Of a DNA stretch of 64,000 bases, positions 53,479 through 58,229 are shown piece after piece. Both the position numbers and the translations under genes were made by a program. The first letter of the stretch is position 1. Each line of letters opens with the position of its first letter. The stretch is from Flavobacterium sp. (GTDB taxonomy: Bacteria > Bacteroidota > Bacteroidia > Flavobacteriales > Flavobacteriaceae). The notes beneath the pieces were generated by a model. It ran no database searches and was not told the DNA's origin. It was given only the letters and a program-made list of their open reading frames with translations. Location of the stretch: the NCBI GenBank assembly GCA_023259675.1, contig JALRGT010000012.1, positions 22,835 to 86,834 on the forward strand, read 5' to 3'.

Positions 53479-53901
53479 TTATTTGTTCATTTTGAAATAA
53501 TAATCGGCGGAATGTTTACCGCTGCCATAAAATAAGAAAAAGATACAAAACAAAAGAATCACGATTGCCAACAATAAATTTTGAGAATGCATTTCGCCCA
53601 TAAAATTCACTAAAATAGCACCCATTAATATCGGTAGTTGAGCTATAATGGCCCATCTGGTAAGTAAACCAAAAGCAATCATTATACCTCCAACCATGTG
53701 TGCCGGAGCAATATAATGAATAAGGAACATACCACCACCAATTTGGTCTATCGGTGATATTAAGTCAACCAAATACTGGATATTGGTAATAAAGTTAACA
53801 CCTTTAAAGAATAAAAAAACACCTAATGCAATTCGGACAAAATCTAAAGTCAAATACGTATGAGCATTAGCCCATTTGTTTAAGTTTTTTACTGTTATCA
53901 T
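53479..53901 (-). CDS. DoxX-family membrane protein
   Basis: A 140-residue protein with four predicted helices, in the DoxX superfamily (LDFVRIALGVFLFFKGVNFI, AHMVGGIMIAFGLLTRWAII). Members are small membrane proteins associated with redox or quinone stress, but most have unknown function. It is monocistronic, with a convergent terminator at its end. Confidence 0.82.
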   Translation of the reverse strand: MITVKNLNKWANAHTYLTLDFVRIALGVFLFFKGVNFITNIQYLVDLISPIDQIGGGMFLIHYIAPAHMVGGIMIAFGLLTRWAIIAQLPILMGAILVNFMGEMHSQNLLLAIVILLFCIFFLFYGSGKHSADYYFKMNK

Positions 53902-54482
53902 AACGCATAAGTTTAAAAGATAGTTGTACTAAGTTAATGATTTTAAATTAGATATGATTATTTAGGAGCGTGTTTTTTTTATCTGTTTGATTCTTTTAAA
54001 TTCTATACAAATACTGTCGCTTAAATTTTGTCGCTCTTGATTATTTCTAATTAACTTTTATTGTTCCGGTCACTATTATTTCTTTTTTGAACATCCCATT
54101 CTTCTTAAATGGGTTTAATTATTGGAGTTCTTAATTGATTTATTGCTTTTATACCTTGTTTTTTCAATCAATTTGATTTTAATTAAATAGTAGTCTTTTT
54201 GATACGTACTTGTACTTATTTTCTATGCGGATAAACTAACTTTTGATACTGAGTAAAATACGTGTAAAAATCAACATCCTTCAAGCCTGTTTCTCAATAC
54301 TATAAACCAAAAGAGGGGTTTCTTATTGTGATTTTTTTTTATGTCGTATGATAAATGAAAAATAAGAATATTACCCGATTTTATTGCTATTGTAATTTAA
54401 GGACAAGAATTAATGAAGTCCGTAATTTAAGTAATTTACTAATTTTAGCAGCTTTTTTTATGTAATAAAACATATTTTAGGC
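53902..54482. other. Long AT-rich spacer upstream of the globin operon
   Basis: No supported gene on either strand. Contains a small hairpin (CCCATT / AATGGG near 54,089-54,108), too weak to call a terminator. The length is unusual for this chromosome, and it could hold a small RNA or a decayed gene that I cannot recognise. Confidence 0.5.
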
Positions 54483-54569
54483 TGTCAATAGTTGACAAAA
54501 TTCGGGTGTAAAAAATGACTTAAAGCGAATCATTGGCAAGGTTTAAAAGATATAGTTCTCATAATTTTG
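54483..54569 (+). promoter_or_regulatory. Palindromic operator and promoter of the globin operon
   Basis: TGTCAA-TAG-TTGACA is a perfect 6-bp inverted repeat (54,483-54,497). TAATTTTG at 54,562-54,569 matches the -7 consensus, with no TTG at 20 bases. The palindrome centre is about 72 bases upstream of the -7 box, a distance compatible with activator binding. The protein is unknown; a Crp/Fnr-type regulator is one guess. Confidence 0.5.
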
Positions 54570-54635
54570 AAAAAACAACGTATGGTACTTAGGTAAATAT
54601 ACGTAACGACGTTAAACTCTTAAATAAATCAAATT

Positions 54636-55049
54636 ATGGAACCAAAAACAATCACATTAGTACAAGAATCTTTTGAAAAAGTAAAACCAATTGCATCAAC
54701 AGCGGCTAAAATATTTTATACTAAATTATTTGAACTGGATCCGGCGCTCAAACCGCTTTTCCCGTCAAATGATGAAGATATGGTTATCCAAGGAAATAAG
54801 TTGATGGTGATGTTGTCCAGTGCGGTAGCTGGTTTGAGTAATTTGGAGATGTTAATTCCTGTGCTACAGAATTTAGGAAAACGTCACGTAGAATACAAAG
54901 TAGAGCCTTTTCATTATCAAACGGTAGGGGAAGCCTTGTTAGGAACGTTAGCAGTTGGTTTAGGGGATGATTTTACGCCCGAAGTTAAAGAGGCTTGGAC
55001 CAATGTTTATGGTACCATGTCAAGCGTAATGATTGATGCATCTTATTAA
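54636..55049 (+). CDS. Single-domain bacterial globin
   Basis: A 137-residue globin of the single-domain Vgb/flavohaemoglobin-like class. The proximal histidine is H84 in NLGKRHVEYKV, and the distal E-helix region has Q52 (MVIQGNKLM). It carries no reductase domain, unlike Hmp, but an FAD/NAD(P)H reductase is encoded three genes downstream, so the pair could act as a two-component dioxygenase or NO-binding system. It is the first gene of a five-gene operon with a palindromic site upstream. Confidence 0.92.
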   Translation: MEPKTITLVQESFEKVKPIASTAAKIFYTKLFELDPALKPLFPSNDEDMVIQGNKLMVMLSSAVAGLSNLEMLIPVLQNLGKRHVEYKVEPFHYQTVGEALLGTLAVGLGDDFTPEVKEAWTNVYGTMSSVMIDASY

Positions 55050-55075
55050 TATAATTCATTTAAAATATACTTATT

Positions 55076-55903
55076 ATGAAAAATAGATTTCAAAACATAG
55101 TTTTAAAATTAGTGGTTTTTACATTCATGATTACGATTATCAATGCCTGTGGTGGTGTGTCAGAAGAAAAAGATTCCGCTGCAGATTCCGAAAATGTTTT
55201 CTCGGTTAATCAAGTTTTAGAAATGGTTGCCAACGAGAATGATGTAACCAGAACTTTATACACGAAAGCGATTGTTGGAGCAGGGAAAAAACAAGGAATG
55301 AAGTTTGACGAAGACTGGAGAAAAAATGAAGTGGAAGCAGGTCCTTTACCAGCACTTTTTCTGAGAGGGATTGCCACCAGTATTAAAAAAGGGGAGGTTC
55401 CATTAGGATTGTATTTAGGTTCTGATTTTCCGGTTAATAAAGCCAACAAGTTGAAAGGGACACAGGCTGAATTATTTGAATTGATTAAAAAAGATCAAAA
55501 ACCTCAATTCTTTTATGATAAAGAACAAAATTTACATACCGCCATGTTTGCAGATTTAGCCAGTGCCGATGCTTGTGTGACTTGTCATAATAATCACAAA
55601 CAAACGACTAAAAGTGACTGGAAATTAGGCGATGTTATGGGGTCGACCACTTGGCAGTACCCTTCTGATTCTTTGAGTTATAAAGGAGCTATTGCAGTGT
55701 TGAATGCGTATTCTAAAGGGACTATTGATACTTATAAAGAATATTTGGCAGAGGTATCTACGTTTAAAGAAAGTGAAAAACCGGAAATAGGAACAAAATG
55801 GCCTTCACAAGGAAAATATTTGCCAACTCCAGAAGTGTTTTTAGACAGTGTTAAAAAACTGACGGCGTACCATACCATGAAGAAATTGGTTCTGGCCAAA
55901 TAA
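55076..55903 (+). CDS. Haem-binding lipoprotein, DUF3365 (Tll0287-like)
   Basis: A 275-residue lipoprotein (lipobox INAC, Cys25). The mature region carries one c-type haem motif, CVTCH at residues 167-171, with the surrounding pattern ASADACVTCHNNH and KSDWKLGDVMG, as in DUF3365/Tll0287-type sensor-like haem proteins. It should face the periplasm. It starts 26 bases after the globin stop codon and is probably part of the electron chain or a periplasmic sensor in this operon. Confidence 0.82.
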   Translation: MKNRFQNIVLKLVVFTFMITIINACGGVSEEKDSAADSENVFSVNQVLEMVANENDVTRTLYTKAIVGAGKKQGMKFDEDWRKNEVEAGPLPALFLRGIATSIKKGEVPLGLYLGSDFPVNKANKLKGTQAELFELIKKDQKPQFFYDKEQNLHTAMFADLASADACVTCHNNHKQTTKSDWKLGDVMGSTTWQYPSDSLSYKGAIAVLNAYSKGTIDTYKEYLAEVSTFKESEKPEIGTKWPSQGKYLPTPEVFLDSVKKLTAYHTMKKLVLAK

Positions 55904-55945
55904 GCATTAAACATCTATTTTGTATCGTTAAAATTATAATTAAAA

Positions 55946-56422
55946 GTGAGAAATACCAAGTCAACCACTATTGGTCTGTTGCTACTATCTCTATTCTTAT
56001 TTCAGTATGTACTGAATTTAAGATGGGAATGGCTGTTTGACCTGCAACAACAGGAAATGTTCAAAAGGTGGTCAGGCTTTGGATTAGGATTATTTATTCT
56101 ATTTCAATGGTTGTTAACCTTTAGTAGAGTGATTAAAAAGTTTAAGAAATATTCTTTTAAAGTCACAAATCTTCATAAGTGGATTGGAGCCATAAGTCCG
56201 TTGTTTTTTTACATTCATAGTATGGAATTGGGGTATGGCTATTTGACTTTACTCGCTTATGTTTTTCTGATTAATACTTTAATTGGGTATTTTAATCTGG
56301 ATGTAATTAAGTCCACTAATGAAACTTTGTTCAAAGGCTGGATGATCGTTCACGTGGCATTTTCCTTTATTGTGACAATACTTTTGGTTTTTCATGTTGC
56401 GGTTGTTTTTTACTACAAATAA
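55946..56422 (+). CDS. Two-haem ferric-reductase-like membrane protein
   Basis: A 158-residue membrane protein with four predicted helices, starting at GTG. H77 and H91 in one helix and H136 and H150 in another form two pairs, each separated by 13 residues. This HX13H pattern is the haem-binding signature of the ferric reductase/NOX transmembrane domain. It has no FAD domain of its own; the next gene encodes one. The position of the pairs predicts haems near opposite membrane faces, so electrons can cross the membrane. Confidence 0.8.
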   Translation: MRNTKSTTIGLLLLSLFLFQYVLNLRWEWLFDLQQQEMFKRWSGFGLGLFILFQWLLTFSRVIKKFKKYSFKVTNLHKWIGAISPLFFYIHSMELGYGYLTLLAYVFLINTLIGYFNLDVIKSTNETLFKGWMIVHVAFSFIVTILLVFHVAVVFYYK

Positions 56423-56476
56423 TGTGTTGAGATTATTTTAAAACACGAGTTGCCAAATATTATTAAAAAGAAATAA

Positions 56477-57505
56477 ATGAAGTTAGTAGTAAAGGATATA
56501 AAAAGAGAAACAAAAGAAGCGGTAAGTATCTATTTTAAAAACGGCAATTTTTTCAATAAATTGAAATACAAACCGGGACAGTTTTTAACCTTATACGTTC
56601 CAGTCAATGGTAAAATAGAAAAGCGATTGTATTCTTTTAGCAGCAATCCGTACACCGATAAGGATTTAAAGATTACCGTTAAAGAAGTAGAAAACGGATT
56701 AGTTTCTAAATATTTATGCAATGGGGTAAAAATTGGAGACCAATTTGAAATTGAGAAACCCCAAGGCAGTTTTTTTGTTGAACCCAATAAAAAGGACCAA
56801 AAACAATATGTGCTTTTTGCGGGAGGAAGCGGAATAACACCTGTTTTATCAATAATTAAATCGGTGTTGACCAATGAACCCATGTCTAAAGTACTCCTTG
56901 TTTATGCCAATAAAAACAAAGAATCCATTATTTTTCATGAGGAAATTAATGCCTTGTTTGATGAATATCCAAACACTTTCAAAGTGGAGCATATCTTATC
57001 CGAAAATAATGAAACAAAAGAAAATTATCATTCTGGTTTAGCCAGTAATGTGCTTTACATCAAGATATTTAACAAACACAATCTTTTATTCGAAAATAAC
57101 ATTTATATGATTTGTGGCCCTTTTGGTTATATGGAAAAGACCAAAGAAATTTTAAGCTTAAATAAAGTCGAAAGGAAAGATATTTTAGTGGAGGTTTTTA
57201 AAAGTCCGGAGGTAAAAGTGTACGGAAAAGATCGTGTAAGCGATGTGGAAATTATCTTTAAAGGGCAAACCCATAAAATAAAAGTGCCGGGAAATAAATC
57301 AATTCTAAGTGTGGCCATGTCAAATAATATTGCCTTGCCATATTCTTGTAGGTCTGGTATGTGCTCCACCTGTAAAGGAGTTTGTGTTTCTGGTACTATC
57401 GAAATGACAGAAGGCCATTTTTTGGAAAAACCTGAAGTGGATAATGGTAAAATACTAACCTGTATCAGTTATCCAAAAAGTGAACAAGTAACTATTCAAA
57501 TATAA
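56477..57505 (+). CDS. FAD/NAD(P)H reductase with C-terminal 2Fe-2S ferredoxin domain
   Basis: A 342-residue cytoplasmic flavoprotein. FAD-binding domain with RLYSFSS, NAD(P)-binding domain with AGGSGITPVLS and MICGPFGYM, and a C-terminal plant-type ferredoxin domain with CRSGMCSTCKG plus a distal cysteine (ILTCISYP). The architecture matches Hcr/PaaE/phenol-hydroxylase-type reductases. It probably passes electrons from NAD(P)H to the membrane protein encoded immediately upstream or to the globin. It is a separate polypeptide, in contrast to NOX and Hmp. Confidence 0.88.
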   Translation: MKLVVKDIKRETKEAVSIYFKNGNFFNKLKYKPGQFLTLYVPVNGKIEKRLYSFSSNPYTDKDLKITVKEVENGLVSKYLCNGVKIGDQFEIEKPQGSFFVEPNKKDQKQYVLFAGGSGITPVLSIIKSVLTNEPMSKVLLVYANKNKESIIFHEEINALFDEYPNTFKVEHILSENNETKENYHSGLASNVLYIKIFNKHNLLFENNIYMICGPFGYMEKTKEILSLNKVERKDILVEVFKSPEVKVYGKDRVSDVEIIFKGQTHKIKVPGNKSILSVAMSNNIALPYSCRSGMCSTCKGVCVSGTIEMTEGHFLEKPEVDNGKILTCISYPKSEQVTIQI

Positions 57506-57515
57506 AAATCTAAGT

Positions 57516-58229
57516 ATGCTGAAAGTTAGCCCATTAAGAAAAAGACAATTTATAGGAGGAATTATCGGTTTGTCTCTGGGAGCTTTTCTTTTCTTTTTTC
57601 TTACGCTTGATTCTTCAGAAGAATATATTTCTCTGGGGCCAATGAATTCAGGTCATGCCGATTTTTCTTGTGTGGCCTGCCATGCGGATGCCAAGGGGAA
57701 TTTATCCCAACAATTACAATCTAATTTTGAACATCTAATTGGGATGAGAAAAAAGGGCGTTGATTTTGGTTCTAAAGATGTGGATGCCAATACCTGCTTA
57801 GCCTGCCATGATAGACCCAATGACCGCCATCCTACATATCGGTTTTCGGAACCAAAGTTTAAGGAAGCAATCCAACACATAGACGCGACCACCTGTATTA
57901 CTTGCCATACAGAGCATAAAGGTGAACGAGTTACCATTGCATCTGTTGAAATGAATTATTGTATGAATTGCCATAAAGATTTGAAAGTCGAAGAGGATCC
58001 CGTTGATGTTTCCCATGAGGAACTGATTGCCAAAAAACAGTGGTTCAGTTGTATTCAATGCCATGATTTTCATGGAAACCATACTTATAAAGTGGCGACA
58101 AAAATAAAAGACACCATCCCGATGAATGTCATTCAAACCTATCTAAAAGGGGGTAAAGATCCTTTTGGCAGCGAAAAAAAATACATTGGTTTATCGCAGT
58201 CTGAATGGTTGAAAAAAATGAAGCACTAA
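57516..58229 (+). CDS. Membrane-anchored pentahaem cytochrome c
   Basis: A 237-residue protein with one N-terminal anchor helix (IIGLSLGAFLFFFLTL) and five CxxCH haem sites: CVACH, CLACH, CITCH, CMNCH and CIQCH. Several histidines between them could give bis-His ligation. It resembles NapC/NirT- or cytochrome c3-like carriers, but the total of five sites and the C-terminal extension (GKDPFGSEKKYIGLSQSEW) are not standard. It starts 10 bases after the reductase and probably takes electrons from the membrane haem protein to a periplasmic acceptor. Confidence 0.88.
   Translation: MLKVSPLRKRQFIGGIIGLSLGAFLFFFLTLDSSEEYISLGPMNSGHADFSCVACHADAKGNLSQQLQSNFEHLIGMRKKGVDFGSKDVDANTCLACHDRPNDRHPTYRFSEPKFKEAIQHIDATTCITCHTEHKGERVTIASVEMNYCMNCHKDLKVEEDPVDVSHEELIAKKQWFSCIQCHDFHGNHTYKVATKIKDTIPMNVIQTYLKGGKDPFGSEKKYIGLSQSEWLKKMKH

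Follow-up and report, generated by a model that had tools for sequence, protein, structure and literature searches.

Several described systems share part of their composition with the gene set considered here, a five-gene cassette on the plus strand at positions 54636-58229 of a 64-kb stretch of Flavobacterium sp. DNA (contig JALRGT010000012.1; hereafter the window, meaning the whole stretch that was analysed). The closest tested precedent is the narK-bjgb-flp-nasC operon of Bradyrhizobium japonicum, whose globin and NAD(P)H reductase protect against nitric oxide (NO) arising from assimilatory nitrate reduction (PMC4724949). As in the Bjgb-Flp pair, the cassette combines a single-domain globin and an NAD(P)H flavin reductase with nitrate transport, an assimilatory reductase and nitrate control (PMC4724949), and the co-regulation of globin and reductase with nitrate assimilation is indicated here by genomic evidence, namely a shared operator and co-occurrence. 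The Bradyrhizobium operon, however, has no HX13H membrane protein, pentahaem cytochrome or sCache_heme lipoprotein, so that the cassette adds an outward, periplasmic electron path; furthermore, Flp also feeds NasC, whereas NasA here carries its own NirB-type reductase.

The remaining parts have counterparts elsewhere. MsrQ-Fre likewise joins a separate flavin reductase to a haem b membrane protein that sends electrons to the periplasm (PMC5676040), although its acceptor is periplasmic MsrP, a molybdoenzyme, rather than a multihaem cytochrome; the HX13H protein is smaller than MsrQ, with five predicted transmembrane helices (TM), and scores below the PF01794 cut-off, and the cassette reductase differs from Fre by its 2Fe-2S domain. 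NOX and SpNOX have HX13H pairs in TM3 and TM5, a cytoplasmic FAD/NAD domain and outward electron flow, but are one polypeptide ending at O2, whereas the cassette is split, lacks TM6 and continues into haems c. The lipoprotein has the CxxCH of the Tll0287 or sCache_heme family, scores above the Pfam cut-off and probably adopts its Cache fold, but has no axial Cys, carries an extra C-terminal helical region and is tied to a relay. Finally, the last protein resembles NrfB as a small pentahaem c-type carrier near nitrite metabolism, but matches its profile weakly, is membrane-anchored and would receive its electrons from NAD(P)H instead of quinol. A named system with this exact set was not found in the searchable open-access literature, in agreement with the first, sequence-only reading of this DNA.

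What is new here is the nitrate-assimilation context of the cassette, revealed by the shared operator. When the lipoprotein alignment was used to search GTDB species genomes, 153 relatives were obtained, and the locus counts given here cover the best 80. A 16-bp palindrome, TANGTA-N4-TACNTA (also written TAAGTATTAATACTTA), was detected ahead of the cassette in 65/75 loci and lies about 42-67 bases before the globin gene in most loci. This consensus was observed upstream of globin (65/76), NrtA (56/62), NasA-NirB (34/38) and Crp (38/63), in contrast to the respiratory genes in cassette loci (NapA, 0/11; NrfA, 0/9), and it preceded the lipoprotein gene in 4 of 79 cases. When up to two mismatches were allowed, 189 of the 194 sites in 1.55 Mb preceded cluster genes. 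The contrast with nap and nrf at the same loci and a Markov expectation served as controls, in place of a comparison with other open reading frames (ORFs; 46/271) that was confounded by cluster genes without a label and by frames on the opposite strand. The window holds two matches against 0.15 expected, both intergenic and before the cassette. The draft genome of the window has ten sites. Besides the two before the cassette, six lie on contig C193, and the remaining two, located elsewhere, are probably due to chance. Since a reversed control pattern occurs seven times in the whole genome, the clustering of the sites, not their number, is telling. The sites on C193 precede porin-NrtA (truncated where the contig stops), Crp, NarK and NirB; this contig also encodes a PilJ-domain NarX-like kinase, a NarL-type regulator and a NirD-type Rieske protein. 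Taken together, the shared operator and its clustering with porin-NrtA, Crp, NarK and NirB indicate that the cassette almost certainly belongs to a nitrate-assimilation regulon, which is thereby directly testable.

In 64 of 65 loci, against 0.3 expected, an element of the Bacteroidota promoter type, TAnnTTTG, lies shortly before the operator, which usually starts 7-10 bases downstream of this -7 element. The operator thus overlaps the expected transcription start, which would be in keeping with a repressor or an atypical activator. A NarL-type regulator, encoded in all 22 cassette genomes including G179, is a lead for its reader. The half-site TACTTAT also fits, though in the opposite orientation, the heptamer TACYYMT of enterobacterial NarL. 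The idea that Crp alone reads the operator is weakened by genome G179, which has the operator (locus L113) and no Crp match at E 1e-20. A further palindrome, TGTCAATAGTTGACA at 54483-54497, was rejected as a Crp/Fnr site on account of its absence from 74 related upstream regions, in which a scan for other Crp/Fnr-type palindromes also found none.

The neighbourhood of the cassette points to the same pathway. Its flanks carry NrtABCD-type transporters, NasA-NirB fusions, NarK, NarL-type and Crp-type regulators, or Nap/Nrf clusters. When 21 cassette genomes (the window's own left out) were compared with 28 genomes without the cassette, NrtB was present in 21/21 versus 2/28, NasA-NirB in 21/21 versus 10/28, NrfA in 14/21 versus 3/28 and NapA in 14/21 versus 4/28, with Fisher values uncorrected for phylogeny or shared ancestry. 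These NrfA and NapA counts, the Nap or Nrf clusters directly upstream at many loci and a weak NrfB-like profile match (0.0012, below the cut-off) would be consistent with a respiratory role, in which the pentahaem feeds NapAB or NrfAH with NADH-derived electrons in periplasmic nitrate or nitrite respiration. However, both NapA and NrfA are missing from four cassette genomes (G111, G175, G179 and G209), the window genome gave no match to NrfA and no close match to NapA, and the universal partners are NasA-NirB and NrtB. As the cassette can occur without nap and nrf, and as neither carries the operator, this role is not favoured, and we consider it distinctly unlikely. The 64-kb window itself contains none of the conserved nitrate neighbours, which are located on other contigs, and NrtB is missing from the window genome because C193 ends there.

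Among 251 genomes of the family, some of the comparison genomes being drafts, the HX13H protein was present in 22, the window's own included, and all five genes were found in one order and on one strand in 20 of the other 21. In the best 80 of the 153 lipoprotein relatives, nearly all of them named Flavobacteriaceae, the lipoprotein, HX13H protein, reductase and pentahaem occurred together at every locus (80/80), with the globin on the cassette strand in 74/80. Joint conservation of the five families, which the sequence-only reading had put forward as the test of its own proposal, was thus observed in 20/21 genomes, and as a four-gene core in 80/80 loci. Cassette proteins from other genera are mostly 52-83% identical and the gene order is fixed, which argues for conservation far beyond chance and for a conserved unit in marine relatives of Flavobacterium. 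Within Flavobacterium the cassette is rare: apart from the window's own genome, the GTDB scan found it in two; among the matches listed for the phylum samples, the window's own genome was the only one of this genus. The globin is accessory to the cassette, being absent from a fusion variant (below) and encoded on the opposite strand in some Aquimarina, and a tandem globin pair heads the cassette at L040:9796-10780 and likewise in L106 and L107. Since an important part in nitrate assimilation has been proposed for marine Bacteroidota (PMC4315400), it is of interest that this near-constant companion of their NrtABCD transporter is unnamed in the open-access literature searched.

ORF coordinates and Pfam profiles agreed with the sequence-only reading on five tightly spaced genes (gaps of 26, 42, 54 and 10 bases, in order), the third of which begins at a GTG start codon, as well as on five CxxCH motifs in the last protein and one CVTCH in the lipoprotein. 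The two HX13H pairs that it had pointed out, H77/H91 and H136/H150, proved invariant across 21 homologues, and the protein is a probable cytochrome b binding two b haems. An AlphaFold2 model (pLDDT 83.7) predicts helices at residues 5-22, 37-53, 64-91, 99-119 and 126-156, with the His pairs in TM3 (64-91) and TM5 (126-156), a NOX-like layout without TM6, and, under the positive-inside rule, the mean net charge of loop B (+4.5) places this loop and the N-terminus on the cytoplasmic side. The Pfam Ferric_reduct (PF01794) score was 19.5 of the 28 bits needed, with weak matches in 17 of 21 homologues (best E, 4e-5). A structural search with the model gave no match below E 0.001 (STEAP1 at E 9.5), and a profile search of solved-structure sequences with the HX13H and lipoprotein profiles gave no match. 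Since the profile cut-off is not reached and no solved fold matches, the resemblance to NOX is one of working, without claim to membership of the superfamily.

In the reductase, the FAD_binding_6, NAD_binding_1 and Fer2 domains all exceeded the Pfam cut-off. The pentahaem matches cytochrome c3/c7-type multihaem profiles and has six invariant His beyond its five CxxCH motifs, which suffice for five bis-His haems, so that it resembles a carrier more than an enzyme. Two independent fusions were observed. In L043 (genome G231), where the globin is missing, the reductase and pentahaem form one 571-residue chain via a single membrane anchor. The other fusion is found in L156, which comes from a distant family of the phylum: three genes (L156:7038-11012) encode a NirB-type FAD/2Fe-2S reductase extended at its C-terminus by a membrane domain that contains two HX13H pairs, then a decahaem cytochrome and then an sCache_heme lipoprotein, without a globin. 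Between them, the fusions link the reductase with the cytochrome and with the HX13H domain, suggesting that the reductase lies inside and the haems c outside. Together with the five-TM topology, the His pairs in TM3 and TM5 and the positive loop B, they support the split NOX-like relay from NAD(P)H to the periplasm that the sequence-only reading had proposed, although that reading missed the nitrate-assimilation regulon; the transmembrane relay, taken alone, is likely.

In such a relay, the cytoplasmic reductase would oxidise NAD(P)H and dock on the cytoplasmic face of the HX13H protein, and electrons would cross the inner membrane via two b haems, presumably held by H77/H136 first and H91/H150 second, before passing to the membrane-anchored pentahaem and then to the lipoprotein. 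An outer acceptor outside the nitrogen oxides, such as ferric iron, other metals or O2 (yielding superoxide), would make the system a NOX or ferric reductase proper. The ferric-reductase-like membrane part, a match of the pentahaem to an MtrC/MtrF-type profile and the formation of superoxide in vitro by reduced sCache_heme proteins with O2 (PMC12889525) are consistent with this, but the regulon and neighbourhood all concern nitrate assimilation, and no iron-uptake genes were identified among the conserved neighbours; we regard such an acceptor as very improbable.

The lipoprotein scored above the cut-off of PF11845 (Tll0287-like; 31.3 versus 24.1 bits, 3e-7), and the best structural match of its model was 5B82 (Tll0287; E 0.0087, probability 1.00, TM-score 0.54 by target). 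The sequence-only reading had recognised a haem lipoprotein from its haem c motif, CVTCH, but not this identity. The family was renamed sCache_heme in a preprint, in which a stand-alone member has Cys/His haem ligation and binds NO weakly, whereas a membrane-signalling member without the Cys binds NO tightly (PMC12889525). CxxCH was conserved in 20/20 members of the cassette family, and the mature proteins contained no Cys other than those of the lipobox and CxxCH (20/20). Given that the axial Cys is missing, as in the NO-binding member studied, the haem of the lipoprotein is expected to be open to NO. A signalling function, with the relay setting the redox or NO state of the lipoprotein, which reports to a nitrate-responsive two-component system or another partner while the globin tunes NO, would accord with the NO-sensing sCache_heme domains fused to signalling modules (PMC12889525) and with the NarL-type regulator in 22/22 cassette genomes. 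Nevertheless, the lipoprotein has no output domain, a pentahaem relay would be heavy machinery for a sensor, and stand-alone family members look redox-type, making this function quite improbable.

The globin, with 137 residues, consists of the globin domain alone, and the reductase is encoded separately in the operon. Its Tyr28 (B10), Gln52 (E7) and His84 (F8) are invariant in the family and align with those of HGbI (3s1i), one of the single-domain flavohaemoglobin-type globins that are its nearest solved relatives; the protein thus carries the signature of flavohaemoglobin-type NO dioxygenases. The same reductase may re-reduce this cytoplasmic globin, which would amount to a split flavohaemoglobin converting NO to nitrate. 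The cassette would most likely remove or buffer, on both sides of the membrane, NO that the assimilatory enzymes form from nitrite. This NO defence accompanying nitrate assimilation, through a nitrate-regulated, NAD(P)H-driven relay and an NO-handling globin, is a reading to which we give about an even chance.

Several points weigh against it, besides the shared ancestry behind the co-occurrence values and the lack of a significant structural match for the HX13H model. The stand-alone sCache_heme proteins studied were weak NO binders and were called redox proteins (PMC12889525). Unlike flavohaemoglobins, the reductase contains a 2Fe-2S domain, and no such globin is present in the G231 fusion variant, so that transfer from reductase to globin is uncertain. 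No nitrate genes were evident within about 7 kb on either side of L156, which suggests that the relay core has uses beyond nitrate. As to the terminal reaction of the NO defence, the lipoprotein may be the catalyst of a new NAD(P)H-driven periplasmic NO-removing enzyme, acting by reduction or through haem-made superoxide that traps NO as peroxynitrite and nitrate. We consider this rather unlikely; if true, nitrate-assimilating Flavobacteriaceae would carry a previously unknown NOX-like NO-removal machine.

Table 1. Features of the cassette and its upstream region (positions in the window).
Feature	Position	Strand	Basis
Single-domain globin, cytoplasmic	54636-55049	+	Pfam Globin 7e-18; nearest solved 3s1i; invariant residues
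Tll0287-like / sCache_heme lipoprotein, one haem c (CVTCH), no axial Cys	55076-55903	+	PF11845; model best match 5b82; cysteine inventory
5-TM HX13H membrane protein, probable two-haem cytochrome b	55946-56422	+	invariant His; model; loop charges; weak PF01794
Cytoplasmic NAD(P)H reductase: FAD, NAD, plant-type 2Fe-2S domains (PaaE/Hcr architecture)	56477-57505	+	profiles
Pentahaem c-type cytochrome, N-terminal membrane anchor	57516-58229	+	five CxxCH, six more invariant His; multihaem profiles
DoxX-like membrane protein, divergent neighbour	53479-53901	-	82% identical divergent neighbour in L044, L045
Operator TAGGTAAATATACGTA	54590-54605	.	46 bases before globin start; consensus match
Second operator-like palindrome TACGTACTTGTACTTA	54203-54218	.	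between divergent DoxX-like gene and cassette
Bacteroidota-type -7 promoter element TAATTTTG (TAnnTTTG)	54562-54569	+	kept upstream of operator in loci

The DoxX-like gene adjoins the cassette in Flavobacterium (the window, L044 and L045) and at no other cassette locus. The second operator-like palindrome sits 300 bases upstream of this gene, and a similarly placed match is found in L045 (1310).

In other families of the phylum (L125-L128), a nine-CxxCH multihaem cytochrome follows a cNMP-binding/ferredoxin-type Fe-S protein, and in L127 the nine-CxxCH cytochrome is directly preceded by a membrane protein of 329 residues that has HX13H pairs and ends in the same TM5-like motif; this arrangement is a looser cousin of the HX13H-multihaem pairing. 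Contig C175 of the window genome (L134:9049-16973) carries a separate nitrate-reductase-like cluster without the operator, encoding a 738-residue NasA-like molybdoenzyme, a ferredoxin, a short protein with a Tat-like signal, a membrane protein and two NarK.

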